From assembly GCF_036227485.1 (NCBI RefSeq), contig NZ_CP109479.1:1736001-1800000 (forward strand): a stretch of 64,000 nt of DNA. The letters are read 5' to 3'. The notes under the pieces were generated by a model. The model ran no database searches. It was not told the DNA's origin and saw nothing but the letters and a program-made list of their open reading frames with translations. A program made the position numbers and the translations under genes. Position 1 is the first letter of the stretch, and each line of letters opens with the position of its first letter. Positions 10,865 to 41,479 of this stretch are shown here, piece by piece. The DNA is from Streptomyces sp. NBC_01451 (lineage in GTDB: Bacteria > Actinomycetota > Actinomycetes > Streptomycetales > Streptomycetaceae).

Positions 10865-10908
10865 AGGGGGCGTTGCGGACCGGCCACGAGCGGTCCGCAA
10901 CGCCCTCT
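10865..10908. terminator. Long hairpin at the 3' end of the minus-strand HTH_42 gene
   Basis: Positions 10865-10882 pair with 10891-10908 over 18 base pairs with a single G-U, around an 8-base loop. The core GGGCGTTGCGGACCG is perfectly complementary to its partner. The right arm overlaps the stop codon of the minus-strand gene, so it should terminate that gene and back up the trypsin terminator from the other side. Confidence 0.75.
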
Positions 10909-12181
10909 ATCCATGTTTCCGCTCCCGTTCCCGTTCCCGGACGACGGGGCCGAACCGGATGTCGTACGCCGCCGCCCCGTGCAGCGCCGCGAGCATCCGC
11001 TCGCCCTCCTCGACCACCGCCGCCCGCGCGCCCTTTGTGAGTTCGCCGAAGGGCTCGACGGTGAGCGTGCGGTCCTCAAGGCGCCACAGGCCCGCGAGGA
11101 AGCCGTCGACGAGCAGGACGCAGTACGCCTGATTGCCCGTCCAGGTACGGCCCTTGAGGTCGGCGGGGACCACGCGGGTGCGGTCGGCGTGCGAGAGGAG
11201 CAGGTTGTCGAACTCGGGCAGGAAGCGCGGCGGTGCCGGGGTGTCGGGGTCGGGGCGGGGAGCGTCGGGGAGGTCGAAGAGCTCGGTGCCGTGCTCGTCC
11301 CGGAAGGTGAGCAGCCGCGGGCGGAGGCGTTCGAAGGCGTCGCGCAGCCGGGTCAGTCCGGCCCAGGTCTGCATGTCCTTCACGGAGGCCGGACCGAAGG
11401 CGGCGAGGTAGCGGAGCACTGTCGTGTCCAGGGCCGAGGTGTCGTCCGCCGACGTCCCGTGCGGCGACGGCTCCTTGGCCGGTCGGCCGAGCCAGTGCTC
11501 GGCGGTGGTGAGGGCGACCTGGCCACTGCGGCCCCACAGGCCGCGCGGGGTGACCTGGACCAGCGGGAGCCGGCAGCGGGCGGCGACGGACAGGGACTGC
11601 GGGTCGGCGTCCGGCCACTCGACGAGGAGCGCCTCGCGCAGCTGCTTCATCGTGCGCGGTTCGGCCTCGACGAGGTCACGCGCGAGGGCGGCGAGCCGGT
11701 CCAGGTCGACGCCCACAAGTCCCTTGCGGAAGTAGGTGAGTTCGCGGTCCCGGGCGGGCTGGACGAGCGGGCGGAGCGTGAGGCAGTCGTCGGCGGTGTG
11801 GGTGTGGATGGTCGAGCGCATGGTGACGATGCGGACGGCTTCCCGGTCCGCCATGAGCCGGGACAGCTCCTCGGGGGCGAACCCGTCGAGGCGGGCGGCG
11901 AGGGCGTAGTACGGGGGCTTCACGTTCTGCGCCTGGAGACCCAGGAGGTGCGCGAGGGCGTCCTGGGCGGACATCCGCGACCGGGTGAGAAGCAGTTGCC
12001 GGGCGAGGGTGGCGCGGTTGAGGGCACGCGGGCCGAGGACGGGGGCCGCGGCAGCGGTGGCGGACGCGGTTGCCGAGGCCGGCCCGGGGCTCGTCGTCGG
12101 GGCGGCTGCCGGGGTCGTCCTCGCCGCGTTCCGCTTCGCCGCGTTCTGGTTCGCCGCGTTCTGGTTCGCCGTGTTCTCCAT
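10907..12181 (-). CDS. HTH_42 / AlkZ-like winged-helix protein, putative DNA glycosylase
   Basis: A 424-residue protein of the winged-helix family that includes the DNA glycosylases AlkZ and YcaQ, which excise bulky or crosslinked alkylated bases. A low-complexity Asn/Ala/Gln/Pro head of about 45 residues precedes the family start (ALNRATLARQLLLTRS). The motif HLLGLQAQN supplies the QxQ pair, the catalytic signature of the AlkZ-type subgroup, followed by MRSTIHTHTADDC and the wing regions. The ATG at 12181 was chosen because the upstream extension lacks family similarity; a start inside the head is possible. It lies 158 bases downstream of, and on the same strand as, the oxygenase gene at the cluster edge. 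Many Streptomyces carry unlinked family members. Confidence 0.75.
   Translation of the reverse strand: MENTANQNAANQNAAKRNAARTTPAAAPTTSPGPASATASATAAAAPVLGPRALNRATLARQLLLTRSRMSAQDALAHLLGLQAQNVKPPYYALAARLDGFAPEELSRLMADREAVRIVTMRSTIHTHTADDCLTLRPLVQPARDRELTYFRKGLVGVDLDRLAALARDLVEAEPRTMKQLREALLVEWPDADPQSLSVAARCRLPLVQVTPRGLWGRSGQVALTTAEHWLGRPAKEPSPHGTSADDTSALDTTVLRYLAAFGPASVKDMQTWAGLTRLRDAFERLRPRLLTFRDEHGTELFDLPDAPRPDPDTPAPPRFLPEFDNLLLSHADRTRVVPADLKGRTWTGNQAYCVLLVDGFLAGLWRLEDRTLTVEPFGELTKGARAAVVEEGERMLAALHGAAAYDIRFGPVVRERERERKHG
12122..12166. repeat. Three tandem 15-base repeats in the AlkZ-like N-terminus
   Basis: The unit CGCCGCGTTCTGGTT occurs at 12137-12151 and 12152-12166, with a variant at 12122-12136 and a partial copy after 12167. 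On the coding strand it encodes a repeated Asn-Ala-Ala-Asn-Gln type pentapeptide at the protein's N-terminus. This points to replication slippage and a tail of variable length. Confidence 0.85.
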
Positions 12182-12339
12182 GTGCCGCACGTTAGCCCCG
12201 CTTGCGGACAGTTTCGGTCCGCGATTCCCGATGTCTCGGGCGAACCGGTCCCGCTTCTCGCCGAGCCGCCGCCGGGCCGTACCGCGCACACGGGTCACGG
12301 CGTCCGCGGTACGGCGGCCCGGTCACAGGCGCGGGACCA

Positions 12340-13149
12340 TCAGATCCACGAGACCACTTCGGCGAGTTCGTCGTCGTAGAAGCCGAAGAAGAAGCCCATG
12401 GTGATCCGGTCGGAGCCGGTGACCTCCTCGATGGAGTGGTAGTAGGTGGGGTTGAGCAGGTAGACGTCACCGGCCCGCGGCTTGAACTCGTGCGCCGGGG
12501 CGCCCTCCGTCACCGCCTCGTCGTAGCCGAGACCGCCGACGATCTTGTACTTGTCGTCCGCGTCGGTCCACCGCTTGCGGTGGATGCGCAGTTCGCCGCC
12601 GGACTCGCACTCCTGGACGCACACAACGCAGCTGAGCTGGTGCCGCAGTCCGGCCAGGGCCAGTCCGGTGCCCGTGGCGTCGCGCATGATGTTGTCGTTG
12701 TGGAGCGGCGTGCGGATGCCGTCCGCGTAGATCCGCACGTTCTGCTGCGAGTAGCCACGGCCGTCGGCCTCGACCTCGGTGTCGAACCGCTTCAGGCCCA
12801 GCACCTCCGCCAGCCGTCGGCGGGTCCGCGCGCCGAGATCGACGCCGATGGACTCGGTGAACTCGTTGGCCTTCCGCGCCTCGGCGAAGTAGGTGTCCGG
12901 CTCGTGCAGGTGCTTGGCCAGGTACGGGCCGATGGTGGTGAGACTGCCGTTGGTGTACTGCGTGGTCGACGCTTCGCCGAAGACCGGTGCCAGTCGCTCC
13001 CGGTTCTCCGCGAACACGGACCGCGGCAGCAGATTCCGCAGCACGACCACCGCCACCGTGCCGTCCACCAGACGTCTGACCAGATCCTGTCCGTCGATGT
13101 CCGTGTCGCGATCGACGTCGACGACGATGCGGCCCCATTGCTCAGTCAC
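12340..13149 (-). CDS. 2-oxoglutarate/Fe(II)-dependent oxygenase
   Basis: A 269-residue double-stranded beta-helix oxygenase, expected to use 2-oxoglutarate, O2 and Fe(II) to hydroxylate or desaturate a small substrate. The facial triad is visible: HxD in TPLHNDNIM (near residue 145), and a distal histidine in NPTYYHSIEEV (near residue 235), followed by an arginine in SDRITMG that could bind the 2-oxoglutarate carboxylate. The GTG follows GGAGGAACTTCGG. It is divergent from the first ATP-grasp gene across a region rich in the cluster heptamer. I infer that it modifies an amino acid used by the ligases. Confidence 0.85.
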   Translation of the reverse strand: MTEQWGRIVVDVDRDTDIDGQDLVRRLVDGTVAVVVLRNLLPRSVFAENRERLAPVFGEASTTQYTNGSLTTIGPYLAKHLHEPDTYFAEARKANEFTESIGVDLGARTRRRLAEVLGLKRFDTEVEADGRGYSQQNVRIYADGIRTPLHNDNIMRDATGTGLALAGLRHQLSCVVCVQECESGGELRIHRKRWTDADDKYKIVGGLGYDEAVTEGAPAHEFKPRAGDVYLLNPTYYHSIEEVTGSDRITMGFFFGFYDDELAEVVSWI

Positions 13150-13212: not shown

Positions 13213-13317
13213 TTGCCACACTTGCCAACTTGTTGACAATGGATAACTGCACGGTAGAGCCATTGATGATTGGACGGCGACACGGCATCACGTCTGAATG
13301 TTGCCAATTGTTGCCAC
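13213..13317. promoter_or_regulatory. TTGCCAA/TTGGCAA operator cluster in the divergent oxygenase / ATP-grasp promoter
   Basis: On the plus strand TTGCCAC (13213), TTGCCAA (13222) and TTGACAA (13233) are spaced 9 and 11 bases apart. A second group, TTGCCAA (13301) and TTGCCAC (13311), lies closer to the plus-strand gene. A possible promoter for that gene is -35 TTGCCA (13301-13306) and -10 TACGGT (13325-13330), 18 bases apart. The spacing in the first group (9, then 11) is the same as in the site at 32210-32236. Confidence 0.7.
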
Positions 13318-13365: not shown

Positions 13366-14643
13366 ATGGAAGCCACATCCGCCGCACCGGTGGTGGTCGT
13401 CGTCGACGGCTACTCCAACGCCGGTGCCTTCGTTGGTGAATTCGCCCGGCTCGGGGTCTCGGCGCTCCATGTGCGGGGCACGGCAGAGTTCCTGCCCAAG
13501 ATGGTGCCGCCGGACCTGTCCGTGTATCAGGACACCTTCGTGTGCGCCGACGCGGACGCGGTGGACGCCCTGGTCGAGCGGCTGGGCGCCTACGAACCGA
13601 TCGCGGTGATCGCCGGCCAGGAGCCCGGGGTTCCGCTGGCGGACCTGCTCAGCGAACGGCTGGGGGTGGCGACCAACGGCACCGCGAGATCCGCGGCCCG
13701 CCGGGACAAGTTCACCATGATCGAGACCGTGCGGGCGGCCGGTCTGCACTGTGCCGCACAGTTCGTCAGCCCGGACCCGGCGGAGATCACCGGCTGGGCC
13801 CGCGGGCACGGCCGCTACCCGGTGGTGGTGAAACCGCGCAGCTCCTCCTCTTCCGACAACGTGTTCGTCTGCCGGTCCGAGGAGCAGGTGGCCGAGGCCG
13901 CGCGGGCGGTGCTGGCCGGGATCACGATGTACGACCAGCGCAACACCGATGTCCTCGTCCAGTCCTATCTGGACGGCACGGAGTACATCGTGGACACCGT
14001 GAGCGCGAACGGGCACCACACGGTGTGCGGGGTCTGGCGCTACGACAAGAACCTGCTGCCTTCCGGCAGGCCGGTCTACGACCTGGACGTGCTGCAGGAC
14101 CCGGACGCGCCGCACGTGCGTGAACTGATCGCCTACGTGCTGCGGGTGCTGGACGCGCTGGGCATCGAGCACGGGCCCGGCCACGCCGAAGTGATCATGA
14201 CGGAGGCGGGTCCGGCGCTCGTGGAGCTGGGCGCCCGGCTGAACGGGAACATGAACACCGCCCACCACGACGAGTTCAGCGGTACCAACCCGGCCCGGCT
14301 CAACGCCCTGGCCTACACGCGGCCCGCCGAGTTCGCCGCCCGGTACGGCGGCAAGGTCTACGCCAAGCGCCACGAGGCGGTCGTACACAACGTCACCACC
14401 AGCCGCGAAGGCCTGGTGACCGCGATCGACGACTCGGTGGTCGACAAGATCGCCGCTCTGCCCACGGTCCGGGAGGTCGTGGTCCGGCGTCCGGCAGGGA
14501 CCCGGCTGGTCCCCACCGTCGACCTGATGACCAGTCCGCTGCGCGTGTTCCACATCGGTGGTTCGCACGCCGAGATCCTCGCCGACCACCAGGTCGTCGG
14601 GCAGCTCACAGACGACGTTTTCCGGCTGGCCGAACCGGCCTGA
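13366..14643 (+). CDS. ATP-grasp carboxylate-amine ligase (first of two)
   Basis: A 425-residue ATP-grasp enzyme, expected to activate a carboxylate as acyl phosphate and join it to an amine. An N-terminal Rossmann-like preATP-grasp domain (VVVVVDGYSNAGAF) precedes the central fold (RRDKFTMIETVRAAGL, then YPVVVKPRSSSSSDNVFV with the ATP-binding lysine). The Mg-binding end HAEVIMTEAGPALVELGARLNG carries E and N ligands. The nearest characterised relatives in general pattern are L-amino-acid ligases of the BacD type. The ATG at 13366 follows GGGAGAGGAACGC. It leads a run of five genes on one strand with close spacing. Confidence 0.9.
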   Translation: MEATSAAPVVVVVDGYSNAGAFVGEFARLGVSALHVRGTAEFLPKMVPPDLSVYQDTFVCADADAVDALVERLGAYEPIAVIAGQEPGVPLADLLSERLGVATNGTARSAARRDKFTMIETVRAAGLHCAAQFVSPDPAEITGWARGHGRYPVVVKPRSSSSSDNVFVCRSEEQVAEAARAVLAGITMYDQRNTDVLVQSYLDGTEYIVDTVSANGHHTVCGVWRYDKNLLPSGRPVYDLDVLQDPDAPHVRELIAYVLRVLDALGIEHGPGHAEVIMTEAGPALVELGARLNGNMNTAHHDEFSGTNPARLNALAYTRPAEFAARYGGKVYAKRHEAVVHNVTTSREGLVTAIDDSVVDKIAALPTVREVVVRRPAGTRLVPTVDLMTSPLRVFHIGGSHAEILADHQVVGQLTDDVFRLAEPA

Positions 14644-19285: not shown

Positions 19286-19417
19286 AAGGCCGGTACGAGG
19301 TACGGCGAGGCGCTCCGGGCGGCGGCGTCCCGCACGCGATCGGCGCGAACAATTCCCCCTGACGCATGATCAGGACATGGGATGATCCCGGCAGGAACCG
19401 AGAGATCGAGTGGGTAC

Positions 19418-20311
19418 ATGGGCAGGATGCACGCGGACGAGGCGGAGACCGACGCGGACCTGGTGCGGCGCCTGCTGCGCGCCCAGTTCCCCCAGTGGGC
19501 GGGCCTGCCGGTCACCCGGCTCGCCTCCGGGGGCACGGTCAACGCGATCTACCGGCTCGGCGAGGACCTGACCGTCCGGCTGCCGCTGCGTCCCGGCGGC
19601 GCCGAGGACATCGTCAGGGAGGCACGGCTGCTCCCCCGGCTGGCGCCGCTGCTGCCACTGCCGATCCCGGAGGTGGTGGCGACCGGTGCCCCGGGCGAGG
19701 GATACCCCATGGCCTGGGCGGTGCACCGGTGGCTCGAAGGCCGCAACCCGGTCGAGGGCGACCTCGCCGGGAGCAAGCTCGTGGCCCGTGACCTCGCGGA
19801 GTTCGCCGTCGCCTTCCGCAAGATCGGTCTCCCCGCCGGTCCGCCCGCGCACCGGGGCGCACCGCTGATCGCCGAGGACCGTGAGATGCGGGAGGCGATC
19901 CAGGCGCTGCGCCGCACCGACGAGCCCTTCGACGCCGACGAGATCACCGCGGCCTGGGAGGAGGCGCTCGCGGCACCCCTGTGGACGGGCCCGGCCTGCT
20001 GGACGCACTCCGACCTCATGCCGAGCAATCTGCTGCTCAGGGGCGACCGCGTCTCTGCGGTCATCGACTTCGGCACCGTGGGCATGGGCGAACCGGCCAG
20101 CGACCTCATCCCGGCCTGGAACCTGCTGCCCGCCTCGGCGCGGCAGGTGTACCGCGAGGCGGTGGACGTGGACGACGCCACCTGGGCCCGCAGCCGGGGC
20201 TGGGCGCTGTCCATGGCGGTCATCCAGCTGCCGTACTACCGGACGACCAACCCGATCATCTCGGCCAACGCCCGGTACGTCATCCGGGAGATCCTCGGGG
20301 CCTCCGCGTAG
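19418..20311 (+). CDS. APH-family small-molecule phosphotransferase
   Basis: A 297-residue protein with the aminoglycoside-phosphotransferase (choline-kinase-like) fold. A glycine loop and nucleotide lobe (ASGGTVNAIYRLGEDLTVRL) precede the catalytic loop WTHSDLMPSNLLL and the metal-binding VIDFGTVGMGEPASDL. The aspartates in HSD and DFG-like positions are present, so it should be active. Beside an aminocyclitol cassette, self-resistance or phosphorylation of an intermediate is attractive, but such kinases are also common in unrelated Streptomyces contexts. Starts at 19382 or 19427 are possible; no strong ribosome site decides. Confidence 0.8.
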   Translation: MGRMHADEAETDADLVRRLLRAQFPQWAGLPVTRLASGGTVNAIYRLGEDLTVRLPLRPGGAEDIVREARLLPRLAPLLPLPIPEVVATGAPGEGYPMAWAVHRWLEGRNPVEGDLAGSKLVARDLAEFAVAFRKIGLPAGPPAHRGAPLIAEDREMREAIQALRRTDEPFDADEITAAWEEALAAPLWTGPACWTHSDLMPSNLLLRGDRVSAVIDFGTVGMGEPASDLIPAWNLLPASARQVYREAVDVDDATWARSRGWALSMAVIQLPYYRTTNPIISANARYVIREILGASA

Positions 20312-23638: not shown

Positions 23639-24805
23639 TCAGGTGCCCACCAGGGTGAGCCGGTCGGCGCACACGGACTCGATGCCCAGCCGTACGGTGT
23701 CCTGGTCGACCTGAGTGATGGGCAGGCCGCCCGGGCAGTGCGCCGCGCCCAGGGACTCCAGGAGGATGAAGTCGAACGTGCCTTCGCGGCCGGGGACGTA
23801 GCCTCGCTTGTTGTCGAGGCGGATGACGTCGAGGACGGACCGCACGTCCAGTTCCTCGGGCAACCGGGTGGGGGCGCCGTTCAGTTCCAGCAGGCGGTGA
23901 TGTGCCAGTTCCTCGGAGCGGTCGAGCAGTCCGAGTTCCCGGGACATGCGCGCCGCGGCGAGCATGCCGATGCCGATGGCGAAGCCGTGCCGTAGCCGGC
24001 CGCCGGTGAGCAGCTCGGCCGCGTGGCCCGTGGTGTGCCCGTACTCCAGGACCAGTGCCTCGCGCTTCTCGGTGTGGTCCGCGCGCATGACCGCGCTCTT
24101 GGCGTCCACGCACAGGTCGATGAAGCGGGTGATGACCTCGGGTGTGTAGTGGCCGTCGGGTCGCAGCAGACCGGCCACCTCGTCGTAACGCTCGGGGACG
24201 ATGCCGAGCACGTTCTTGATCATTTCGCACAGGGCGGACCGGATCTCCTCGGCGGGCAGCGAGTCGAGGAAGTCCAGGTTGTTCCAGACCAGGACAGGCG
24301 CGTGGAACGTGCCCAGGTGGTTCTTGCCACAGCGGGAGTTGACGGCCTGTTTGAGGGAGAGCACCGAGTCGGACATCGCCAGCAGGGTGGTGGGCATGTG
24401 GACCAGACGCACCCCCCGGAAGAGAAGTGCCGCCAGCAGGCCGGCCATGTTGCCCACGACTCCCCCGCCGAGCGCGACCACCACGGACCGGCGGGTGATG
24501 CCGCTCTTCAGCGCCTGTTCCCCGATGCGGTCGAGAGCGGCCATGTTCTTCGAGGTTTCGTCGGCGTTCACCTTCACCAGGTGGGTCGGGGCGACGGAGG
24601 AGAGGTGCACCTCCGTCGCGGCGACCAGGTGGTCCGGGAGGCCCGCGTCGGCGACGACCACGAAGCGGTCGGCGTCGAGGCCGGCGAGCCGCACTCGCAG
24701 GTCGTCCCAGGCCGCGCGACCGTGCCGCACGTGAAAGGCGTAGTGGATGTCGCCGAACCGTATTTCCCGGTCGAGTCCGGAAGTCTGTCCTGACAGGAGG
24801 GCCAT
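23639..24805 (-). CDS. 2-deoxy-scyllo-inosose synthase-like sugar phosphate cyclase
   Basis: A 388-residue member of the dehydroquinate-synthase superfamily. The region RRSVVVALGGGVVGNMAG is the NAD-binding turn. MPTTLLAMSDSVLSLKQAVN, MIKN, EYGHTTGHAAEL (metal histidines) and LDNKRGYV match, by memory comparison, the butirosin DOI synthase BtrC (SDSVLSIKQAVN, LVKN, EYGHTIGHAIEL, HDNKRGYI). This separates it from EEVS-type cyclases. The expected reaction is glucose-6-phosphate to 2-deoxy-scyllo-inosose. It is first in a four-gene operon (with SDR, aminotransferase, isomerase). A three-copy heptamer operator lies upstream. Confidence 0.85.
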   Translation of the reverse strand: MALLSGQTSGLDREIRFGDIHYAFHVRHGRAAWDDLRVRLAGLDADRFVVVADAGLPDHLVAATEVHLSSVAPTHLVKVNADETSKNMAALDRIGEQALKSGITRRSVVVALGGGVVGNMAGLLAALLFRGVRLVHMPTTLLAMSDSVLSLKQAVNSRCGKNHLGTFHAPVLVWNNLDFLDSLPAEEIRSALCEMIKNVLGIVPERYDEVAGLLRPDGHYTPEVITRFIDLCVDAKSAVMRADHTEKREALVLEYGHTTGHAAELLTGGRLRHGFAIGIGMLAAARMSRELGLLDRSEELAHHRLLELNGAPTRLPEELDVRSVLDVIRLDNKRGYVPGREGTFDFILLESLGAAHCPGGLPITQVDQDTVRLGIESVCADRLTLVGT

Positions 24806-24896: not shown

Positions 24897-24925
24897 TTGG
24901 CAACCATACGGCAACTGCTTGGCAA
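24897..24925. promoter_or_regulatory. Triple 11-base-period operator upstream of the DOI-synthase-like gene
   Basis: TTGGCAA (24897-24903), ACGGCAA (24908-24914) and TTGGCAA (24919-24925) repeat with an exact 11-base period, one helical turn. An opposed TTGCCA lies at 24877-24882. Read on the coding (minus) strand, TTGCCA at 24902-24897 could serve as -35, with CAATCT 18 bases further as -10. The rest of the gap to 25079 shows nothing else. Confidence 0.75.
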
Positions 24926-26939: not shown

Positions 26940-26986
26940 ACTGTAGCTGTTGAGATTTGGCAACTCAATTGCCAGAATGTTGGCAA
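26940..26986. promoter_or_regulatory. Divergent promoter with TTGGCAA-N5-TTGCCA dyad
   Basis: TTGGCAA (26957-26963), TTGCCA (26969-26974) and TTGGCAA (26980-26986) form a dyad with a five-base centre plus a third copy. For the minus-strand SDR gene a good promoter overlaps: -35 TTGAGT (26968-26963) and -10 TACAGT (26945-26940), 17 bases apart. Operator and promoter overlap, so the regulator could repress or activate both directions. Confidence 0.72.
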
Positions 26987-27024
26987 CATAATCCGGCGAC
27001 AATGACTCTCGCAAGGTGGTCCTC

Positions 27025-30940: not shown

Positions 30941-32125
30941 TCAGCGCAGCTCTTCGGCCACCGGATCCACGAGCTTGAGAGCGACGCGCTCGGCTTCCTT
31001 GAGGATCGTGTCGCGGAACCGCGTGCTCAGTTCGAGGACGGGCGGCAGGACGCGGCACTCGTCGATGCTCTGGTCGGGGTAGGGCAGGGCGAGCCCGGCC
31101 AGCGGGAGCACCTCGCGTGGGGTCTGGTCGTCGAACATCGTGCCGATCGAGGGGGCGGGCGCGTGCGTCCGGGAGTCGATGGCGGCGCCGACCACGAGGA
31201 CACTGCGGCCGTTGACCGTGCCACGCACGACACCCAGCTGCTGCCCGTCGACGGGAACGGCGGCGGCCACCTCGCGCTCGGCGTCCGGATAGAGCCGGTC
31301 CGCTTCGAGCTGCTCGTAGGCGATGGCCATCTCCACGTCCAGGACGGGCCACTTGGCGAGGTAGTACCGCCAGTTGACGATCTCCGTCTCGGACTGGTCC
31401 ACCTGGTTGCGCGGGTGCGGGAGGTGGACGCCGTAGACGCCTTCCCCCAGCACGATGGGCGTGCCCGTGCGGGAGACCCGGCGGGCCCATTCCTGGTCCT
31501 CGGGGCCCCAGCCGCGGAAGCCCTCCTCGTAGGTGAGGCCGTGCTCCTTGACGATCTCCGCGGGTACGGCGACGAGGGCGCCGCAGGCGTAGACCCAGGG
31601 GAAGCGCGCGAAGGCCGACGCGTACTCCGGGGTCCAGCGGGAGTCCAGCTGGACGTTGCCCTCCGTCTCCAGCTTCGCGAGGACCTTCCGGTAGTCGCTG
31701 AACGGGAGGACTTCGACGCTCTCCACGTCACGCCTGATGACGTCGTCGTAGCCGATCATCTGGCCGACCACGCAGATCTTCTGCCCGTGCTGGAAGTAGC
31801 GGGTGTAGAGGTTCTCCAGGAACCTGGAGGGCACCACCATGTCCGCGTCGAGAACGACGAGGACCTGCCCGGAGATCTGCCGCAGTGCCAGGTTCCGCGC
31901 ATGGCAGAGATTCCACTCGGCGCCCGACATCACCGTGATGATGTCGAGACGGTCCGAGAACTCCTCGCACACGGCGGTGAACTCCGGGGAGTACTCCAGC
32001 GCACCGACGACGACCTCGAACTCCGAACGGTCCATCGTCTGTTCGGCGAGCGCGGCGAGGGCGAGCCTGACATTGTCCAGGCGCTGCTTGTACGGAATGA
32101 CGATGCTGAACTTCGGGGCACCCAT
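30941..32125 (-). CDS. Family 2 glycosyltransferase
   Basis: A 394-residue protein with a GT-A fold in the first 240 residues: FSIVIPYKQRLDN, the metal-binding DAD in VLVVLDADMVVP, and GWGPEDQEWARR, where the acidic pair is the catalytic base region, as in GT2/GT27-like polymerases. The last 150 residues are an extension without recognisable family. No membrane segment was seen, so it is soluble. It should transfer a nucleotide-sugar unit, perhaps the GalE product. The ATG follows GTAGGAGGAGCAGGC. It is the first gene of an operon with MATE and FAD oxidase genes. Confidence 0.85.
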   Translation of the reverse strand: MGAPKFSIVIPYKQRLDNVRLALAALAEQTMDRSEFEVVVGALEYSPEFTAVCEEFSDRLDIITVMSGAEWNLCHARNLALRQISGQVLVVLDADMVVPSRFLENLYTRYFQHGQKICVVGQMIGYDDVIRRDVESVEVLPFSDYRKVLAKLETEGNVQLDSRWTPEYASAFARFPWVYACGALVAVPAEIVKEHGLTYEEGFRGWGPEDQEWARRVSRTGTPIVLGEGVYGVHLPHPRNQVDQSETEIVNWRYYLAKWPVLDVEMAIAYEQLEADRLYPDAEREVAAAVPVDGQQLGVVRGTVNGRSVLVVGAAIDSRTHAPAPSIGTMFDDQTPREVLPLAGLALPYPDQSIDECRVLPPVLELSTRFRDTILKEAERVALKLVDPVAEELR

Positions 32126-32198
32126 GCCTGCTCCTCCTACGAAGTCGTGTGTCCTCCCCGGTCCGACGAAGGGACCGGGGGGCTTCAACAAGAGAAGC

Positions 32199-32236
32199 TT
32201 GGCACAATGTTGCCTAGATTGACAATGGGTTGCCGA
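32199..32236. promoter_or_regulatory. Heptamer operator upstream of the GT2-MATE-oxidase operon
   Basis: TTGGCAC (32199-32205) and TTGCCTA (32210-32216) make a dyad with a four-base centre. TTGACAA (32219) and TTGCCGA (32230) continue with steps of 9 and 11 bases, the same spacing as the 13213-13239 group. The remaining sequence to the deacetylase stop at 32491 (about 250 bases) is noncoding and shows nothing else I can support. Confidence 0.7.
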
Positions 32237-32490
32237 GACCCTTCCGGCCGACCGGAGACAGCCGGGCCGGCACCGCTGACGCGTGTACGCCGGACAGACG
32301 GAAGAGCTCCCCGTGCGCGGTGACACCCGCTCACAGGAAGCTCTGTCGATGGCTCGGCAGCAGAAGGGCCGGATGCGGGCACCCGGGCGGGCGGCTCCGC
32401 ACCGAGCCGGTGCATCGAGTCGTCCGTTCCCGGGGCGGGGCTCACCGGTGCGGGAGTCCCACCCCGGGACGGCTCGTGACCGGCGTCCGG

Positions 32491-35117: not shown

Positions 35118-35330
35118 TTACGGCCAGTCGATGTCGTCGTTGCCAGCCTTGGCAGAAGTGAGAGCGCTCTCTGCCTTGGGCCAGTCAATCCCGTCATCGG
35201 CGCTGGCAGCATGAGTGACAGCGCTCTCTATTTTGGGCCAGTCGATGACCTCCAGCGAAACGGGTGTCAAAGCACCCAAGGTGATGACGGAGAGAGTTGC
35301 GGCGGACACGGTGCGGAAACGCTTGTACAT
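35118..35330 (-). CDS. Secreted signalling-peptide precursor with three IDWP repeats
   Basis: A 70-residue protein unlike an enzyme. Residues 1-25 form a Sec-type signal: basic start MYKRFR, then a hydrophobic stretch ending near LTPVS. The rest holds three repeats: IDWPKIESAVT (29-39), IDWPKAESALT (49-59) and a terminal IDWP (67-70) that is the exact C-terminus, before TAA. Linkers are acidic and alanine-rich. Exported precursors with a short repeated or C-terminal peptide are the hallmark of Phr/PapR-type signals, which are processed and re-imported to bind a TPR receptor. The divergent neighbour is such a receptor candidate. The ATG follows AGGGAAGCCGAC; a promoter with the cluster heptamer precedes it. 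I know of no characterised homologue. Confidence 0.8.
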   Translation of the reverse strand: MYKRFRTVSAATLSVITLGALTPVSLEVIDWPKIESAVTHAASADDGIDWPKAESALTSAKAGNDDIDWP

Positions 35331-35399
35331 GTCGGCTTCCCTAATGAAGGCACAGGTGAGTGCGGACTTCGAGGGCCCAGCGACCCCGAAGCCACGATC

Positions 35400-35451
35400 A
35401 ACGTATCCGGAACGGGCGAGCCTTGGCAACGATTTGCCTAGAAGTTGGCAA
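35400..35451 (-). promoter_or_regulatory. Promoter and triple operator of the peptide gene
   Basis: On the minus strand -35 TTGCCA (35429-35424) and -10 TACGTT (35405-35400) are 18 bases apart, giving a leader of about 60 bases. The plus strand shows TTGGCAA (35423), TTGCCTA (35434) and TTGGCAA (35445) at exact 11-base steps; the first two form the dyad TTGGCAACGATTTGCCTA. The dyad covers the -35 box. Confidence 0.72.
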
Positions 35452-35488
35452 CTAGCTGTCATCGATCGTTCACGCCCTCACGGAGCGT

Positions 35489-35541
35489 CTGGCAACCGGG
35501 CAGGCAAGTTACTTGCCGAAATATTTACGGGGCGATAGGAT
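35489..35541 (+). promoter_or_regulatory. Promoter and operator of the XRE-TPR regulator gene
   Basis: CTGGCAA (35489) and CAGGCAA (35501) precede the perfect inverted repeat GGCAAGTTACTTGCC (35503-35517). A promoter fits exactly: -35 TTGCCG (35513-35518), a 17-base spacer, -10 TAGGAT (35536-35541). The dyad overlaps the -35 box, so autoregulation is likely. The leader is about 85-90 bases to the ATG. Confidence 0.75.
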
Positions 35542-35634
35542 CCGCCGTAAATCAGTACGTTTTTGTGCTCGCCGAGAGCCGCGGGGGAGGTCGAGCCGCT
35601 ACCTGTCGTCGTATGCACTGATAGTGAGATTCAC

Positions 35635-36894
35635 ATGCTGGAACAGCCGACTTTCGGACGACGCCTCAAAGAGCTCCGGGTGGAGCGTGGGCTGTCACAG
35701 GCCTCTCTCGCGGGCGAGGAAATCTCGACCGGGTACTTGTCACGCCTGGAATCTGGCGCCCGCCAGCCCACCGAGCGCGTGGTCACGTACGTCGCCCAGG
35801 TACTGGGGGTGGACCGGTCCGCCTTCGACACTCCTCCCAGTGGCGGCTCACTCGCCCAGGCCCTGTCCATCGCGACGTCCACGGACGGTGACGAGGGGAT
35901 CGCGAACCTCATCGCCGTGCTCGCGCAGGTGCGCGAGGAAGCGCCTTTCATGCGCTGGCAGGCACTGTGGCTGATCTCCCGCTACTGGCAGCGCCACGGC
36001 CGGCGGGACGAGGAGCGGGCATGCCTGGAGGAGCTGATGCGGGTCGCCGACGAACTCGCCCTGCCCGAACTGCAGTGCAGGGCCAGGTTCCAACTCGCCC
36101 GCGCGCTGCGGTCGACGGGCGAGGTGCCCAGGGCGCTCGACATCGCCGTCAACGCGTACCAGCTGGCCAAGAAGGCCGAGCTGTCCGTCACCGACACCGG
36201 AGGCTCACTGCTCACGCTCGTCTCCGTGGAGGCGGAGGCGGGTCGGCTGCCCGATGCCCGGGCGCACGTCGACGAACTGGTCCAGCTGGTGGCGGGGCGG
36301 TCCGATCCCCTGGCCGCCGAAGCCCTGTGGTCGGCCGCCACCGTACGGTTCCGGCAGGGCGACCACGAGGTCGCGCGCGGCTATCTCGAACAGGCCATGA
36401 AGCAGTTGGACAGCAACGTCGACCTGACGTTGTGGGCACGGCTGCGGCTGGCCGCGGCCTCCCTGCACCTGCAGAGCACCCCTCCGCAGACCGACCGTGC
36501 GCACGAGTGCCTGGAGGCGGCGGCCAGCGCACTCGCCCTGGTGGGCACGCCCGTACTGCGCCAGGAGCTGCTGACCCTCCAGACACACCTGGCCTTCGAG
36601 CAGGGCCGCTACGCGGACGCGCGCACCCTCCACGCCCGGCTCCACGGCGACGAACTGCGCCTGACGTACCGGGACCAGGTCAGGCTCCACATCCTCGACG
36701 CACGCCTGATGATCCTGGAAGGCCGTGAGGACGAGGGCATCCAACGCCTCAAGGAGCTGGGCGAACAGGCCCGTCAGCAGTCCAACATCGATCTGGCCGC
36801 CGAGATCTGGCGCATCCTCGCCGAGTCCCTGGAGGACGCCACCCGCGCCCGCCGCGAGCAGCAGGCGGACAGGCCCGGGGCGACCGGACACTGA
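35635..36894 (+). CDS. XRE-HTH regulator with TPR-like domain, probable peptide-sensing cluster regulator
   Basis: A 419-residue protein. Residues 7-60 form a Cro/C1-type HTH (FGRRLKELRVERGLSQASLA, then STGYLSRLESGARQP). From about residue 95 to 405 it is entirely helical, with repeated 34-40-residue helical pairs (for example ARFQLARALRSTGEVPRAL, RFRQGDHEVARGYLEQAM and TLQTHLAFEQGRYADARTL), the TPR-like peptide-binding scaffold of RRNPP regulators (PlcR, Rgg, Rap). It is divergent from the IDWP-repeat peptide gene, and its own promoter carries the operator found across the cluster. I infer that it binds the mature peptide and controls the regulon. The ribosome site is weak (GTGAG), so modest expression is likely. 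Confidence 0.85.
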   Translation: MLEQPTFGRRLKELRVERGLSQASLAGEEISTGYLSRLESGARQPTERVVTYVAQVLGVDRSAFDTPPSGGSLAQALSIATSTDGDEGIANLIAVLAQVREEAPFMRWQALWLISRYWQRHGRRDEERACLEELMRVADELALPELQCRARFQLARALRSTGEVPRALDIAVNAYQLAKKAELSVTDTGGSLLTLVSVEAEAGRLPDARAHVDELVQLVAGRSDPLAAEALWSAATVRFRQGDHEVARGYLEQAMKQLDSNVDLTLWARLRLAAASLHLQSTPPQTDRAHECLEAAASALALVGTPVLRQELLTLQTHLAFEQGRYADARTLHARLHGDELRLTYRDQVRLHILDARLMILEGREDEGIQRLKELGEQARQQSNIDLAAEIWRILAESLEDATRARREQQADRPGATGH

Positions 36895-37490: not shown

Positions 37491-37528
37491 TTGCCTTAGG
37501 TGTGCCAACCTTGGCAAACTATTGCCTA
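37491..37528. promoter_or_regulatory. Heptamer operator upstream of the polyprenyl-phosphate GT operon
   Basis: TTGCCTT (37491), GTGCCAA (37502), TTGGCAA (37511) and TTGCCTA (37522) lie in a row. The last two form TTGGCAAACTATTGCCTA, the same dyad with a four-base centre as at 35423-35440. The first two are 11 bases apart. A GTG inside the operator (37502) opens the downstream frame but is unlikely to be a start codon for that reason. Confidence 0.75.
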
Positions 37529-37603
37529 CTACTCCGGACCGAGACCGCGACCCCGTACAGCGCATGCAGGCCTGCTCCGAGCCGCACCGCAAGGAGGGTT
37601 CCC

Positions 37604-38593
37604 ATCGCCACGCAACAGCCGAGCGGCATACCGCCACGCTCGTATCTCATCAGCGTCGTCCTGCCCTGCTACAACGAGGAACAAGTACTCGGGCGCACCC
37701 ACGAACGTCTCACCCGCGCCCTGCGCGACCTGCCGCACGAGATCGTCTACGTCGACGACGGAAGCACCGACGCGACCTGGACGCTCATCCAGAAGCTCAT
37801 CGCCGACACCCCCACGGGCCCGCACTCCCCCCAGGTACGCGGGGTCCGCTTCAGCCGCAACTTCGGGCATCAGGCCTCGTGTCTGGCAGGTCTCGCCGAG
37901 GCCGGGGGCGATGCCGTCGTCCTGATGGACGCGGACCTCCAGGACCCGCCCGAACTCATCGCGGGCATGGTGGAGGAGTGGTTCAAGGGCTGGTCGGTGG
38001 TGTCCGCGCGCCGCGCCACCCGGCACGGCGAGACCCGCCGGAAGAAGGCCACGGCCTATCTGTACTACCGCCTGCTGTCCCGGATCAGTGACCAGCCCGT
38101 CGCGCTCGACACGGGCGACTTCCGTCTCCTCGACCGCAGGGTCGTCGACTTCGTGACCTCGCTCGGGGACAGGGAACTGTTCCTGCGCGGTCAGATCAGC
38201 TGGGCCGGCTTCCCCGAGACGAGCATCTCCTACGCCCGCGACCCCCGTGCCGCGGGCACCACCAAGTACACGCTGCGCAAGATGCTGGCGCTCTCCCGCA
38301 CCGGCGTCCTCTCGGGCACCGCCGCCCTGCCGTTGCGCATTCCCACGTACGTCGGGGTCGCGTCGCTGCTGGGGGCCGGCGGCATCGGCGTGGTCCGCGG
38401 CAGCGCCCGGCAGGCCGCCGCGCTGGGCGCGTTCGGGATCCAGTCCCTGGCCTGCGGTGTCCTGGGCGAATACCTGCTGGGCGTCTTCCGCCAGGTCCAG
38501 GGCCGCCCGCCCTATCTCGTCATGGAACGCATCGACTCGGGCCGCGGCCGGGCCGTGGCGGACTTCGCCGCCCACCTTGAGGAGCACTCATGA
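37604..38593 (+). CDS. GtrB/ArnC-type family 2 glycosyltransferase (polyprenyl-phosphate sugar synthase)
   Basis: About 330 residues. The GT-A domain shows ISVVLPCYNEEQVL, IVYVDDGSTD, RGVRFSRNFGHQASCLAGL and VVLMDADLQDPPELI. Near the C-terminus are two membrane segments (YVGVASLLGAGGIGVV and FGIQSLACGVLGEYLLG), followed by the family ending QGRPPYLV. These enzymes move a sugar from a nucleotide to a polyprenyl phosphate. The best ribosome site, AAGGAGG (37591-37597), is six bases before an ATC at 37604; the only in-frame upstream GTG or TTG codons lie in the operator without a site. I therefore propose an ATC start. It heads a five-gene overlapping operon. Confidence 0.82.
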   Translation: MATQQPSGIPPRSYLISVVLPCYNEEQVLGRTHERLTRALRDLPHEIVYVDDGSTDATWTLIQKLIADTPTGPHSPQVRGVRFSRNFGHQASCLAGLAEAGGDAVVLMDADLQDPPELIAGMVEEWFKGWSVVSARRATRHGETRRKKATAYLYYRLLSRISDQPVALDTGDFRLLDRRVVDFVTSLGDRELFLRGQISWAGFPETSISYARDPRAAGTTKYTLRKMLALSRTGVLSGTAALPLRIPTYVGVASLLGAGGIGVVRGSARQAAALGAFGIQSLACGVLGEYLLGVFRQVQGRPPYLVMERIDSGRGRAVADFAAHLEEHS

Positions 38594-40053
38594 ACACACA
38601 GGACACCTTGGACGGGCAGGACGGACAGGACGGGCAAGGGGACCGGGACACGGACGTCGGGGACGCCGTCGTCGTCGGCGGCGGTTTCACCGGCCTCGCC
38701 GCCGCGCTGGAGCTGGCCGAACTCGGCCACCGGGTGACGGTCCTGGAGAAGGAGCCGGAACTCGGGGGCCTGGCGGGCAGTTTCGACGTCGGCGGCGACC
38801 GGCGCATCGAGCGCTTCTACCACCACTGGTTCGACTCGGACCAGGAGATCATCGGCCTGTGCGAACGGCTGGGCATCTCCGACGCGGTGCGGCCCCACCT
38901 CACCCGCACCGGCATGTACTACGCCAACTCCATCTACCGCCTCTCCCGCCCCCTGGACCTGCTGCGCTTCGCCCCGCTGTCCCTGCCGGACCGGCTGCGG
39001 CTCGGTCTCATGGCCCTGCGCGCCGGCCGGGTCCACGACTGGCGCTCACTGGAACACCTCACGGCCAGGGAATGGCTGGTCTCGCTCGGCGGCCACCGGG
39101 TCTACGACGTCGTGTGGCGGCCCCTGCTGGAGGGGAAGTTCGGCGCGTACGCCGACCAGGTCGGCGCCACCTGGATGTGGACCAAGCTCCATCTGCGAGG
39201 CGGCAGTCGCACCAGGTCGGGCAGTGAGGTCCTGTACTACCTGCGCGGCGGCAGCGAGACCCTGATCGACGCGCTGCACCAGCGGCTGATCGAGGCCGGT
39301 GTCCGGATCCGCACCGCCACCGCCGTCGACGCCGTGCTCACCGACGACACCGGCGTCACCGGCGTACGCACCGGTGACGGCGCCGTCCTGCGGGCACGGC
39401 ACGTGCTGCTCACCAACGCGCCCGCGCAGGCGGCACAGCTGCTCGATCCCGCGGACGCCACCGGACCCGGGGCCCCCGCGCGCCACCCCGCGGTCCCGGC
39501 ACTCGTGCGGCAACTGCGCGGCATCCGCTACCTGGCCAACGTCTGCCTGGTCCTGGAGAACAACCGCAGGCTCTCCGACACCTACTGGCTGAACGTCAAC
39601 GACCCGGCGTTCCCCTACGTCGGCGTGATCGAGCACACCAACATGGACACCCCGGAGCACTACGGCGGCCGTCACGTCGTCTATCTCTCCAAGTACCTCC
39701 CGGCCGACGCCGAGCTGTACCGGATGAGCGACGAGGAGGTCTTCGAACACAGCCTCCCGCACCTGCGCCGGATGTTCCCCGGCTTCGACCGCAGCTGGGT
39801 CGAGAACCATCACGTCTGGCGTGCCGAGTACGCCCAGCCCGTGATCACCCCGAACTACACCCGGGACGTACCCCCGCTCCAGACCCGGCTCAGCGGCCTG
39901 TACCTGGCGAGCATGGCGCAGGTCTTCCCGGAGGACCGGGGCACCAACTACGCCGTGCGCGAGGGCCGCAGGGCCGGCCGGCTGATCGCCGACCGGCTGC
40001 GCACCGGCGCCGCGGTGGGCGCGCCGCACACGAAGGAGACGTCCCGTGCCTGA
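38590..40053 (+). CDS. FAD-dependent oxidoreductase (amine-oxidase/protoporphyrinogen-oxidase-like)
   Basis: A 487-residue protein with an N-terminal dinucleotide-binding fold VVGGGFTGLAAALELAELG (after about 30 residues), EKEPELGGLAGSF and a C-terminal FAD segment (LYLASMAQVFPEDRGTNYAVREG). Family members often sit beside GtrB-like glycosyltransferases in polysaccharide or glycolipid loci, where their reaction is undefined. The ATG overlaps the glycosyltransferase stop (ATGA). It may act on a lipid-linked sugar made by its neighbour, for instance by oxidation before transamination by the next enzyme. Confidence 0.82.
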   Translation: MNTQDTLDGQDGQDGQGDRDTDVGDAVVVGGGFTGLAAALELAELGHRVTVLEKEPELGGLAGSFDVGGDRRIERFYHHWFDSDQEIIGLCERLGISDAVRPHLTRTGMYYANSIYRLSRPLDLLRFAPLSLPDRLRLGLMALRAGRVHDWRSLEHLTAREWLVSLGGHRVYDVVWRPLLEGKFGAYADQVGATWMWTKLHLRGGSRTRSGSEVLYYLRGGSETLIDALHQRLIEAGVRIRTATAVDAVLTDDTGVTGVRTGDGAVLRARHVLLTNAPAQAAQLLDPADATGPGAPARHPAVPALVRQLRGIRYLANVCLVLENNRRLSDTYWLNVNDPAFPYVGVIEHTNMDTPEHYGGRHVVYLSKYLPADAELYRMSDEEVFEHSLPHLRRMFPGFDRSWVENHHVWRAEYAQPVITPNYTRDVPPLQTRLSGLYLASMAQVFPEDRGTNYAVREGRRAGRLIADRLRTGAAVGAPHTKETSRA

Positions 40054-41479
40054 CCTGCTCACCCTCGACCAGGCCGAACGCCTCGGCATCGACCAGGTCC
40101 ACGATCTGTACGGCAGATACGTCAGCCGCAGCCAGGTCTCCCTCATCGGCACCTTCGGTTTCGGCCGTGACCTCGTCGAGAGTGCCGAGGGCGCCTGGAT
40201 ACACCTGCGGGACGGGCGACGCATCCTGGACTTCACCGGCGGGGTGGGCGTCCTGAACCACGGCCACAACCACCCCCGCATCCTGAAGGCCCGCGACCGC
40301 TTCCGCGCGGAGCGGCGCATGGAGGTCCACAAGAACTACCTGTCCCCCTATGTCGCCGCGCTCGGCCACAACCTCGCCGCGCTGCTCCCGGGTGACCTGA
40401 ACATCTCGTACTTCCCCAACTCGGGCGCCGAGGCCGTGGAGGGCGCCGTCAAGCTGGCGTACAAGTACCACGGTGGCCGCCGCGGCACCGTGCTGCACAC
40501 CGACATCGCCTTCCACGGCAAACTGCTCGGTGCCGGCAGCCTCACCGCCTCCCCGGAGATCCACTTCGAGTACCCGCGGCTGCCGGGCACGGACTCCTTC
40601 GCGTACGGGGACATCGAGTCCTTCCGGCTCGCCCTGGAGCGCCACACGGACGGGCGCGGCCACAGCGACGTCTACTCGGTGGTGCTGGAACCGTTCAGCG
40701 CCTCCAGCCTGCGCGAGTGCTCCGCCGAGTTCCTGCACGAGGTACGGCGTCTGTGCACCGAGCTGGACATCGTGCTGGTCTTCGACGAGGTGTACACGGG
40801 CTGGGGCAGGACCGGCGAACTCTTCCACTTCATGCGCCACCCGGGCCTGGTCCCCGACGTGGTGACGACGTCGAAGTCCTTCGGCGGCGGCAAGTCCTCC
40901 ATCTCCGGGTACATCGCGCGGGAACCGGTCTTCCGCCGGGCCTACGACAATCTGCGCGACGCCACACTGCACAGCACCACCTACTACGGCTTCGGCGAGG
41001 AGACGGCCACAGCCCTGGAAGCGGTGGCGATCGCCGTCGAGGAGGACTTCCCCGGGCGCGCCCGCAAGCTCGGTGAGATCCTCGCGCCGGGCCTCGCCGG
41101 GCTTGCCGCCCGCCACCCGAGGACGGTCGCCGGCACGGCCGGCCGGGGCGCGCTGCACGGCCTGTACCTGCGCCAGGGCCGCAGCCTGCCCTCGGCCGTG
41201 CGCGACCTCGTCCCGGTCAGACTGGCCAAGGACCCGCAGGTCTACGCCAAGCTGCTCACCGGCGCGGTGATCGCCGCGCTCTACCGGGACCACGACATCC
41301 TCACCTTCTTCGGCTCCAACCAGAGCATCGCGCTGATCGTGGCGCCCCCGCTGGTGGCCGGCGAGGAGGAGGCGCGGATCTTCCTGGACGCCCTCGACGC
41401 GGTGCTGGACCGGGGCGCGCCACGGCTGCTCGCGGACTTCGTCCGGGAGAAGGCGACCGCGGGCAGGGGCCCGCGATGA
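40046..41479 (+). CDS. Class III PLP-dependent aminotransferase
   Basis: A 477-residue ornithine-aminotransferase-like enzyme. FTGGVGVLNHGHNHPRI starts the family core; YFPNSGAEAVEGAVKLAYKYH binds PLP phosphate; VLVFDEVYTGWGRTG carries the ring aspartate; TTSKSFGGGKSS holds the Schiff-base lysine. It should transfer an amino group to a primary aldehyde or keto group, consistent with the oxidases in the same operon creating a carbonyl. Its GTG start lies eight bases inside the preceding gene, and its stop overlaps the next gene by ATGA. Confidence 0.9.
   Translation: MPDLLTLDQAERLGIDQVHDLYGRYVSRSQVSLIGTFGFGRDLVESAEGAWIHLRDGRRILDFTGGVGVLNHGHNHPRILKARDRFRAERRMEVHKNYLSPYVAALGHNLAALLPGDLNISYFPNSGAEAVEGAVKLAYKYHGGRRGTVLHTDIAFHGKLLGAGSLTASPEIHFEYPRLPGTDSFAYGDIESFRLALERHTDGRGHSDVYSVVLEPFSASSLRECSAEFLHEVRRLCTELDIVLVFDEVYTGWGRTGELFHFMRHPGLVPDVVTTSKSFGGGKSSISGYIAREPVFRRAYDNLRDATLHSTTYYGFGEETATALEAVAIAVEEDFPGRARKLGEILAPGLAGLAARHPRTVAGTAGRGALHGLYLRQGRSLPSAVRDLVPVRLAKDPQVYAKLLTGAVIAALYRDHDILTFFGSNQSIALIVAPPLVAGEEEARIFLDALDAVLDRGAPRLLADFVREKATAGRGPR

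Follow-up and report, generated by a model that had tools for sequence, protein, structure and literature searches.

A candidate peptide pheromone with an IDWP core and a divergent XRE-TPR regulator in a predicted aminocyclitol cluster of Streptomyces

In silico analysis of a 64,000-nucleotide stretch of Streptomyces sp. NBC_01451 (contig NZ_CP109479.1, positions 1,736,001 to 1,800,000; referred to here as the window, with positions counted from its first letter) has revealed a short gene for a 70-residue peptide precursor with three copies of the motif IDWP, lying back to back with a gene for a 419-residue regulator that combines an XRE-type helix-turn-helix (HTH) with tetratricopeptide repeats (TPR). 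Judging from the sequence, we think it probable that the two encode a peptide pheromone and its intracellular receptor, controlling the predicted aminocyclitol cluster in which they lie. An earlier note on this DNA had likened the pair to RRNPP systems, and the likeness is now supported as far as the genetic anatomy goes, namely by the recurrence of the pairing at other loci, the conservation of IDWP, the placement of an operator-like palindrome and the first rank of a PlcR-PapR complex among Foldseek matches to the regulator model.

The precursor gene occupies 35118-35330 on the minus strand and its translation, MYKRFRTVSAATLSVITLGALTPVSLEVIDWPKIESAVTHAASADDGIDWPKAESALTSAKAGNDDIDWP, confirms that the IDWP copies fall at residues 29-32 (35235-35246), 49-52 (35175-35186) and 67-70 (35121-35132; all minus strand), the last being the exact C-terminus. 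The signal peptide proposed by the note is borne out to the extent that approximately residues 1-26 (35253-35330, minus strand) have a positive N-terminus and a hydropathy of 1.91; such calls, here and below, come from a crude hydropathy and charge rule and not from a dedicated predictor. Within the 10.27-Mb genome the precursor is unique, the next-best match having an E value of 1.1, and its full length, used as a protein query, retrieved three metagenome relatives, each of 70 residues, with all three IDWP copies invariant (3/3). Streptomyces torulosus and Streptomyces sp. MA5143a both harbor a 91%-identical regulator and the same divergent 70-residue frame, again with all three copies. Over its 213 bp the precursor aligned to that of MA5143a with zero indels and with 14, 10 and 20 substitutions at codon positions 1, 2 and 3, respectively (13 codons silent, 19 replaced), and 48 gap positions were needed in the 200 bp 3' of its stop codon; the absence of indels and the codon-position pattern suggest that the frame and its IDWP copies are kept while much else changes.

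The regulator gene (35635-36894, plus strand) encodes a candidate peptide receptor, as judged by Pfam, an AlphaFold model and profile matches. Its HTH domain spans residues 7-62 (35653-35820, plus strand), matching the Pfam families HTH_31 (E 4.4e-12, 46.6 bits vs. a cut-off of 27) and HTH_3 (33.9 bits vs. 23), and a TPR superhelix covers approximately residues 70-411 (35842-36867, plus strand) according to Pfam and the predicted structure, with TPR_12 at E 2.5e-8 (34.4 bits vs. 30.1). With HTH_31 and TPR_12 both above their cut-offs, the domain layout described in the earlier note stands. A profile search of the window's genome found one full-length match and one match confined to the HTH. 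The AlphaFold model is an all-helical repeat with a pLDDT of 92.9; in a Foldseek search against PDB its first-ranked match was the PlcR-PapR7-DNA complex, with Rap and ComR complexes lower. Rap, NprR and AimR are also present among the VIA matches listed for the model, and PlcR and ComR have no entry among the 50 listed there, which does not exclude them. By sequence, the closest natural solved HTH is that of ComR.

Since short precursor genes diverge fast, the family was surveyed through the regulator, homologs of which (E<=1e-20) were found in 74/392 genomes of the same genus, the window's own counted. A phylum-wide survey at E<=1e-60 identified 4/396 genomes (again with the window's own), all four from the window's genus; relatives were also seen under the names Kitasatospora, Nocardiopsis and Micromonospora, and phage records gave no match to the regulator. 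Stretches of up to 20 kb around regulator homologs were collected for precursor reading, two of which (L148 and L149) are contig fragments of one genome. The earlier note had proposed a search for small DWP-ending frames beside XRE-TPR genes and had undertaken beforehand to abandon its reading if homologous loci lacked a conserved IDWP frame; such frames recur at most of the closest regulators and at many distant ones. Small frames ending in IDWP, VDWP, LDWP, IEWP, VEWP or LEWP adjoin regulators down to approximately 40% identity, multi-copy frames with IDWP, IEWP, VEWP or IGWP likewise adjoin regulators whose identity to that of the window goes down to approximately 40%, and two further precursor-bearing regulators are only approximately 31% identical to it.

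For counting, we defined a precursor as a frame of 20-320 residues with a start codon and [ILV][DEG]WP at the exact C-terminus or in at least two copies, whose end lies no more than 2 kb upstream of the regulator; these same loci served for choosing the motif letters and, as W and P are set by the rule, their invariance in the resulting set is by construction. This strict rule selected a precursor at 48/86 regulator genes, the window's own counted, vs. 1/86 over the same distance downstream (L098, whose frame belongs to the precursor family) and 3/448 distant 2-kb tiles (L039 and L040, which had been fetched for their precursors, and the chance-looking L078). A looser look adds L084, L087, L089, L096, L097 and L103 together with the downstream frame of L098, giving 55/86; L102, with an upstream frame containing a single internal IDWP, was left out of the count. 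A direct precursor search over the genus matched 34/392 genomes at E<=0.1, and 5 of the 13 matched loci that were read, besides that of the window, hold family precursors (G243, G068, G100, G116 and G308).

The 48 rule-based precursors hold 69 motif copies, with I (57), V (8) or L (4) as first residue and D (45), E (17) or G (7) as second. A stop codon directly follows 41/69 copies, 28/69 are internal and 7/48 precursors have no terminal copy. Copy number ranges from 1 to 13 across the family, the largest precursor having 13 IGWP copies in 236 residues (HUAS 15-9 plasmid). The three copies emphasized in the earlier note are thus seen in the window and five close relatives, and are not essential. 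Its description of an IDWP core behind a signal peptide likewise holds in part, as the second residue may be D, E or G, and relatives with just one copy, or with no recognizable signal peptide, are numerous: the start is signal-peptide-like in 33/48 precursors, comprising 16 with a single terminal copy, 10 with several including a terminal one and 7 with several but none terminal. The residue preceding the motif is D, G or E in 44/69 copies and hence the mature peptide may exceed four residues.

The second motif letter clusters on the regulator tree, with 10 changes on 54 labelled regulators vs. a mean of 19.9 and a least of 15 in 200 shuffles. We considered this D/E/G letter as a receptor-specificity code and rejected it: within a clade of 6 G and 4 D types, one alignment column separates the two vs. 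1.4 by permutation. Another clade (4 E, 3 D) has fourteen separating columns, counted without a permutation control and largely following the tree, and the R found at column 276 in 8/8 G-types is confounded by kinship. Several loci depart from the common form. The L041 precursor (9308-9679) has two IDWP copies and the end AGVIGRA, and its close relative L075 has, 383 bp upstream of the regulator, a short signal-peptide-like frame ending in AGVIGRV, which lacks a WP motif and might be a signal that has decayed or been altered. In the IEWP clade (L104, L105, L107, L108, L109 and L113) the frames share a stretch resembling EVxVxRxxRPGxxRR, weaker in some, that is not a classical signal peptide, and representatives of the linked genes encode a sigma-70-type factor, a PapA-type acyltransferase and a PAS-LuxR regulator. 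In L096 and L103 an IGWP frame close to the regulator is joined by a multi-copy IDWP precursor further off, i.e. two signal letters per locus.

Eleven plasmid loci that had played no part in setting the rule were also read; they were taken from the 20 listed of 36 regulator-bearing plasmid records, skipping loci already seen and near-duplicates. The strict rule selects L155 (3 IDWP) and L158 (3 IGWP), and 7/11 hold a precursor once looser or differently placed forms are included, as evidenced by: 1) frames just past the end of the regulator in L156 (6 IGWP), L159 (3 IGWP and one altered) and L163 (4 IGWP); 2) a frame with 2 VEWP copies, terminal, 2.48 kb upstream of the regulator in L162; 3) in L157, a frame 0.4 kb upstream whose single IGWP is followed by a two-residue tail, with 6 further copies 7.5 kb off and a chance-looking VEWP frame. 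L160, L161, L164 and L165 have no precursor, the last three holding only an uncounted 13-codon frame ending in LEWP. The L159 precursor is nearly the same as that of L098, so that the plasmid set is partly non-independent. Where annotated, the plasmid precursors carry the label 'hypothetical protein'. Multi-copy IGWP-type or related precursors lie near a class V aminotransferase gene in the plasmid loci L156, L157, L159, L163, L166 and L167, the last (NBC_00316) having been reached via a precursor match, with no regulator annotated in the stretch. On the Streptomyces sp. SAT1 plasmid (L157), a graspetide-type tgmA/tgmB/tgmC locus and a second gene annotated as a tetratricopeptide repeat protein lie within approximately 8 kb of the regulator.

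A second line of evidence comes from the DNA between and around these genes. Among the 8-mers enriched upstream of the regulators, TTGGCAA and TTGCCAA words come at the head, and together they make up a palindrome with the consensus TTGGCAA-N4-TTGCCAA. Its core, GGCAA-N4-TTGCC, occurs in 31/74 upstream regions (700 bp each, for regulators scoring >150 bits) vs. 2.7 expected, as estimated on pieces drawn at random from these loci, the sites not being independent as many of the loci are related; everted and direct arrangements of the half-sites were weaker than the 4-bp-spaced palindrome and were set aside. All 33 core sites have TAnnnT 17 or 18 bp past TTGCCN, with three hits in total at other distances from 8 to 29. 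At loci with a rule-based precursor, 16 of 22 sites face away from the regulator, toward the divergent precursor, and 6 face the regulator, a same-strand locus accounting for one of the six; at loci without such a precursor, 10 face the regulator and 1 faces away. The rest of the loci (1.29 Mb in all) contains 38 sites at <=2 mismatches vs. 2 for the reversed pattern; some precede multi-copy precursors and 34 are without a -10 at that spacing. Of the multi-copy precursors at other positions, L167 not included, 10/10 are preceded by the palindrome at 0-1 mismatch and no more than 340 bp from the start (several of the ten are mutually related), which links precursor and regulator independently of the divergent arrangement.

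In the window, the intergenic region contains the palindrome TTGGCAACGATTTGCCTA at 35423-35440 (1 mismatch; sites are given without strand), a second, weaker site at 35445-35462 (3 mismatches) and a dyad with a 5-bp spacer, GGCAAGTTACTTGCC, at 35503-35517 over the -35 of the regulator. The predicted precursor promoter (35400-35429, minus strand) has its -35, TTGCCA, at 35424-35429 and its -10, TACGTT, at 35400-35405 with a spacing of 18; that of the regulator (35513-35541, plus strand) has TTGCCG at 35513-35518 and TAGGAT at 35536-35541 with a spacing of 17. TTGCC half-sites therefore fall on both -35 positions, in agreement with the earlier note, which had seen a dyad over the -35 of each promoter, the dyad of the regulator being the one with the 5-bp spacer. 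On this evidence the palindrome is a family-wide operator-like element, situated before precursors and, in the window, before biosynthetic operons.

Allowing <=3 mismatches to TTGGCAAN4TTGCCAA, the window has 11 matches, some overlapping, vs. 0.39 expected, starting at 13222, 24897/24908, 26969, 32199/32219, 35423/35434/35445, 37511 and 5822, the last probably by chance. At <=2 mismatches, 5 sites occur genome-wide, all 5 in the cluster of the window, with the reversed control also giving 5 genome matches at places unlisted. Beyond the intergenic region, operator-like sites lie between a WelO5-like Fe/2OG gene (12340-13149, minus strand) and an ATP-grasp gene starting at 13366 on the plus strand (13222-13239); upstream of a DHQ-synthase-like gene (24897-24925, two overlapping sites of 3 mismatches each); between an SDR gene (minus strand) and an aldo/keto reductase gene starting at 27016 on the plus strand (26969-26986, 3 mismatches); upstream of a glycosyltransferase gene (30941-32326, minus strand, likely start 32125; 32199-32236, two sites of 2 mismatches each); and at the head of a glycosyltransferase/oxidase/aminotransferase run (37502-41479, plus strand; 37511-37528, 1 mismatch). 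A common -10 distance was sought at these target sites and was not found. In the second glycosyltransferase gene (37502-38593), at site 37511, the listed GTG start is doubtful, as it coincides with the operator-like site, and AAGGAGG, which resembles a ribosome-binding sequence, precedes an in-frame ATC codon.

The aminocyclitol-type character that the note assigned to the cluster is corroborated by its genes. The DHQ-synthase-like gene that marks it (23639-24805, minus strand), which we take to be of the 2-deoxy-scyllo-inosose-synthase type, is accompanied by an aminoglycoside-phosphotransferase-type gene (APH; 19382-20311, plus strand), a class III aminotransferase gene (40046-41479, plus strand), the glycosyltransferase genes and others of glutamine-synthetase-like, deacetylase, PhyH, MatE and MFS type. 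At the cluster edge lies a gene for an AlkZ-like DNA glycosylase (10907-12298); such genes can confer self-resistance to DNA-alkylating products.

If the pair acts in signaling, we postulate the following course. The precursor would be exported, as predicted from its signal-peptide-like start, and extracellular proteases, including one cutting after proline for the internal copies, would release several short peptides sharing the IDWP core and a free C-terminal proline, with the true N-terminus possibly further out. These peptides would be re-imported via an oligopeptide permease, for which the genome has many candidate binding proteins (18 SBP_bac_5 match stretches, three apparently one frame, which speaks to import capacity only). 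As suggested by the fold and the pairing, the peptide may then settle in the TPR groove and alter the state of the regulator, which in turn would bind TTGGCAA-N4-TTGCCAA. Where precursor and regulator diverge, the site overlies the -35 boxes of both promoters, and an autoregulatory loop would result; most sites at the biosynthetic operons are without a -10 at that spacing, as would fit activation. The overlap of the operator with the -35 boxes of precursor and regulator, and the absence of a consensus -10 from most of the remaining sites, thus suggest autoregulation together with activation of biosynthesis. Apart from the regulator and its precursor, no gene family (genes of >=100 codons within 9 kb) was common to more than 16/75 loci. 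The family reaching 16 loci is an ATP-grasp/L-amino-acid ligase and the nine further neighbor representatives include SDR, PapA-type, sigma-factor, adenylation, MFS, PAS-LuxR, SARP and NRPS proteins; as no second family travels with the pair, maturation and import would use general enzymes.

Several observations weigh against a secreted pheromone with an intracellular receptor. No precursor was found at 31/86 regulators, of which eight are only approximately 28-31% identical to that of the window (L139-L145, L147), one is at 35% and 22, contig fragments among them, are at approximately 40-65%. Only 2/11 plasmid loci were selected by the strict rule, which leaves our estimate unaltered because the 48/86 count, its controls and the operator evidence are independent of the plasmid set. 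Fifteen of the 48 precursors have no signal-peptide-like start, all with a single terminal copy in 21-50 residues, and among the ten annotated neighbor families no dedicated protease or transporter was seen with the pair. With 19 codons replaced and 13 silent relative to MA5143a, purifying selection over the whole precursor frame is not strong, and in the clade of 6 G and 4 D types no receptor residue tracks the motif letter more closely than chance would allow. The resemblance of the TPR part is generic as well, with LGN at Foldseek rank 2 and APPBP2, MalT and APC/C equal or higher in VIA, and profile matches to PlcR and ComR end by residue 67, with those to other transcription regulators ending at 103. 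PlcR comes first by fold, yet unrelated TPR proteins score alike, and any kinship of the modeled TPR domain with RRNPP receptors is tentative.

We weighed four other explanations. The 15 short precursors without a recognizable signal peptide would suit an intracellular co-factor, i.e. a WP-ending peptide that binds the regulator within the producing cell as a self-timer or regulator lock, with export irrelevant to signaling; the pairing and the operators fit this equally well, but we consider it unlikely given the 33/48 precursors, the window's among them, with a signal-peptide-like start and the tandem copies, up to 13, that suit processing and amplification. The peptide might also be an output of the regulator and not its ligand, as a secreted effector or a modified product of the kind made from ribosomal peptides, in keeping with the operator-like site in precursor promoters, the biosynthetic genes in the sampled loci and the class V aminotransferase near multi-copy precursors on six plasmids. 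This we hold to be quite improbable: the sole gene common to most loci encodes the TPR regulator and no modifying enzyme, one short core recurs across clusters of different chemistry, and a Sec-type signal peptide is ill-suited to cytosolic modification. Proline-ending arrest peptides such as TnaC exist, and a leader peptide whose C-terminal WP-stop stalls the ribosome to control a downstream gene would account for the copies directly before a stop codon and for one clade in which precursor and regulator share a strand, the precursor frame stopping 108-192 bp short of the regulator; with 28/69 copies internal, 7/48 precursors lacking a terminal copy, one precursor holding 13 copies and the peptide gene of the window pointing away from the regulator, we give this very little credence. 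The window is rich in small open reading frames, and a few short plasmid frames ending in EWP look like chance, but the notion that short high-GC frames merely happen to hold DWP is refuted for the family by the upstream counts relative to the downstream and tile controls and, together with the indel-free, codon-patterned comparison with MA5143a and the conserved operators, appears to us scarcely tenable for the window.

Extending the pheromone-receptor reading to the family, we speculate, with somewhat more doubt than conviction, that Streptomyces share a gene-encoded peptide language with a nearly fixed [ILV][DEG]WP core in 1-13 copies, one family of XRE-TPR receptors approximately 40-90% alike and one palindromic operator, serving antibiotic clusters of differing chemistry, whether chromosomal or on linear plasmids. 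With a core so little altered from strain to strain, such a signal would be a public one, able to wake related clusters in other species, in contrast to the private pherotypes usual for RRNPP systems. The usual explanation for population control of Streptomyces antibiotic clusters invokes mainly gamma-butyrolactones and related small molecules; a widespread family of gene-encoded peptides and their receptors, if true, would constitute a second, genetically tractable signaling channel. A synthetic peptide ending in IDWP, IEWP or IGWP would then offer a cheap handle on silent clusters, and the DNA motif would let the target operons of each cluster be read off.

As to precedent, we found no account of such a pair in Actinomycetota in titles and the beginnings of abstracts, with bioRxiv and most subscription journals outside coverage, and no paper joining IDWP and Streptomyces in the literature searched. 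The passages available from a 2026 review describe RRNPP systems in Firmicutes (PMC13220807), those from the RRNPP_Detector paper present the signals of Actinomycetota as typically enzyme-made small molecules (PMC10075063), and those from a third source name TPR proteins as one kind of predicted component in Streptomyces, besides mentioning peptide signals for actinobacteria generally (PMC4748050); no peptide-TPR pair of this kind appears in these passages or in those of PMC11343458.

With RRNPP(A) systems the pair has in common an N-terminal XRE-type HTH, a C-terminal TPR superhelix, a small precursor gene beside the receptor, an export signal on the precursor (by our heuristic) and a signal at the C-terminus (copy 3 in the window, and the 41 stop-adjoining copies of the family). 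The conserved palindrome over the -35 of the precursor promoter may be a site through which the receptor acts. An HTH of this type is known from all RRNPP(A) receptors but Rap. Against membership, what we take to be the Pfam RNPP C-terminal model was absent among the 13 families matching the whole regulator at E<=1; the pair would work like an RRNPP system, but without that family and with a TPR domain of uncertain kinship to RRNPP receptors. PlcR-PapR of the Bacillus cereus group, in which autoregulation is typical, has the same XRE-HTH and TPR receptor and a small adjacent precursor with a signal peptide and C-terminal pheromone; here, in contrast, the phylum is Actinomycetota, the core is [ILV][DEG]WP, a precursor can have up to 13 copies and the operators are cluster-specific, with sequence similarity to PlcR detected only in the HTH (residues 6-67). 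NprR-NprX, Rap-Phr and AimR-AimP (RRNPPA) differ in coming from Bacillota and their phages. Rgg-SHP and ComR-ComS of Streptococcus, from another phylum than the pair of the window, share the XRE-HTH; their precursors are not known to have a classical signal peptide, which 15 of the 48 here also lack, and the SHP or ComS signals are C-terminal, with a different peptide and no known repeats. The gamma-butyrolactone systems of Streptomyces (ScbR, ArpA) likewise provide population signals for antibiotic clusters, and differ from the proposed pair in relying on enzyme-made small molecules and TetR-type receptors and not on gene-encoded peptides.

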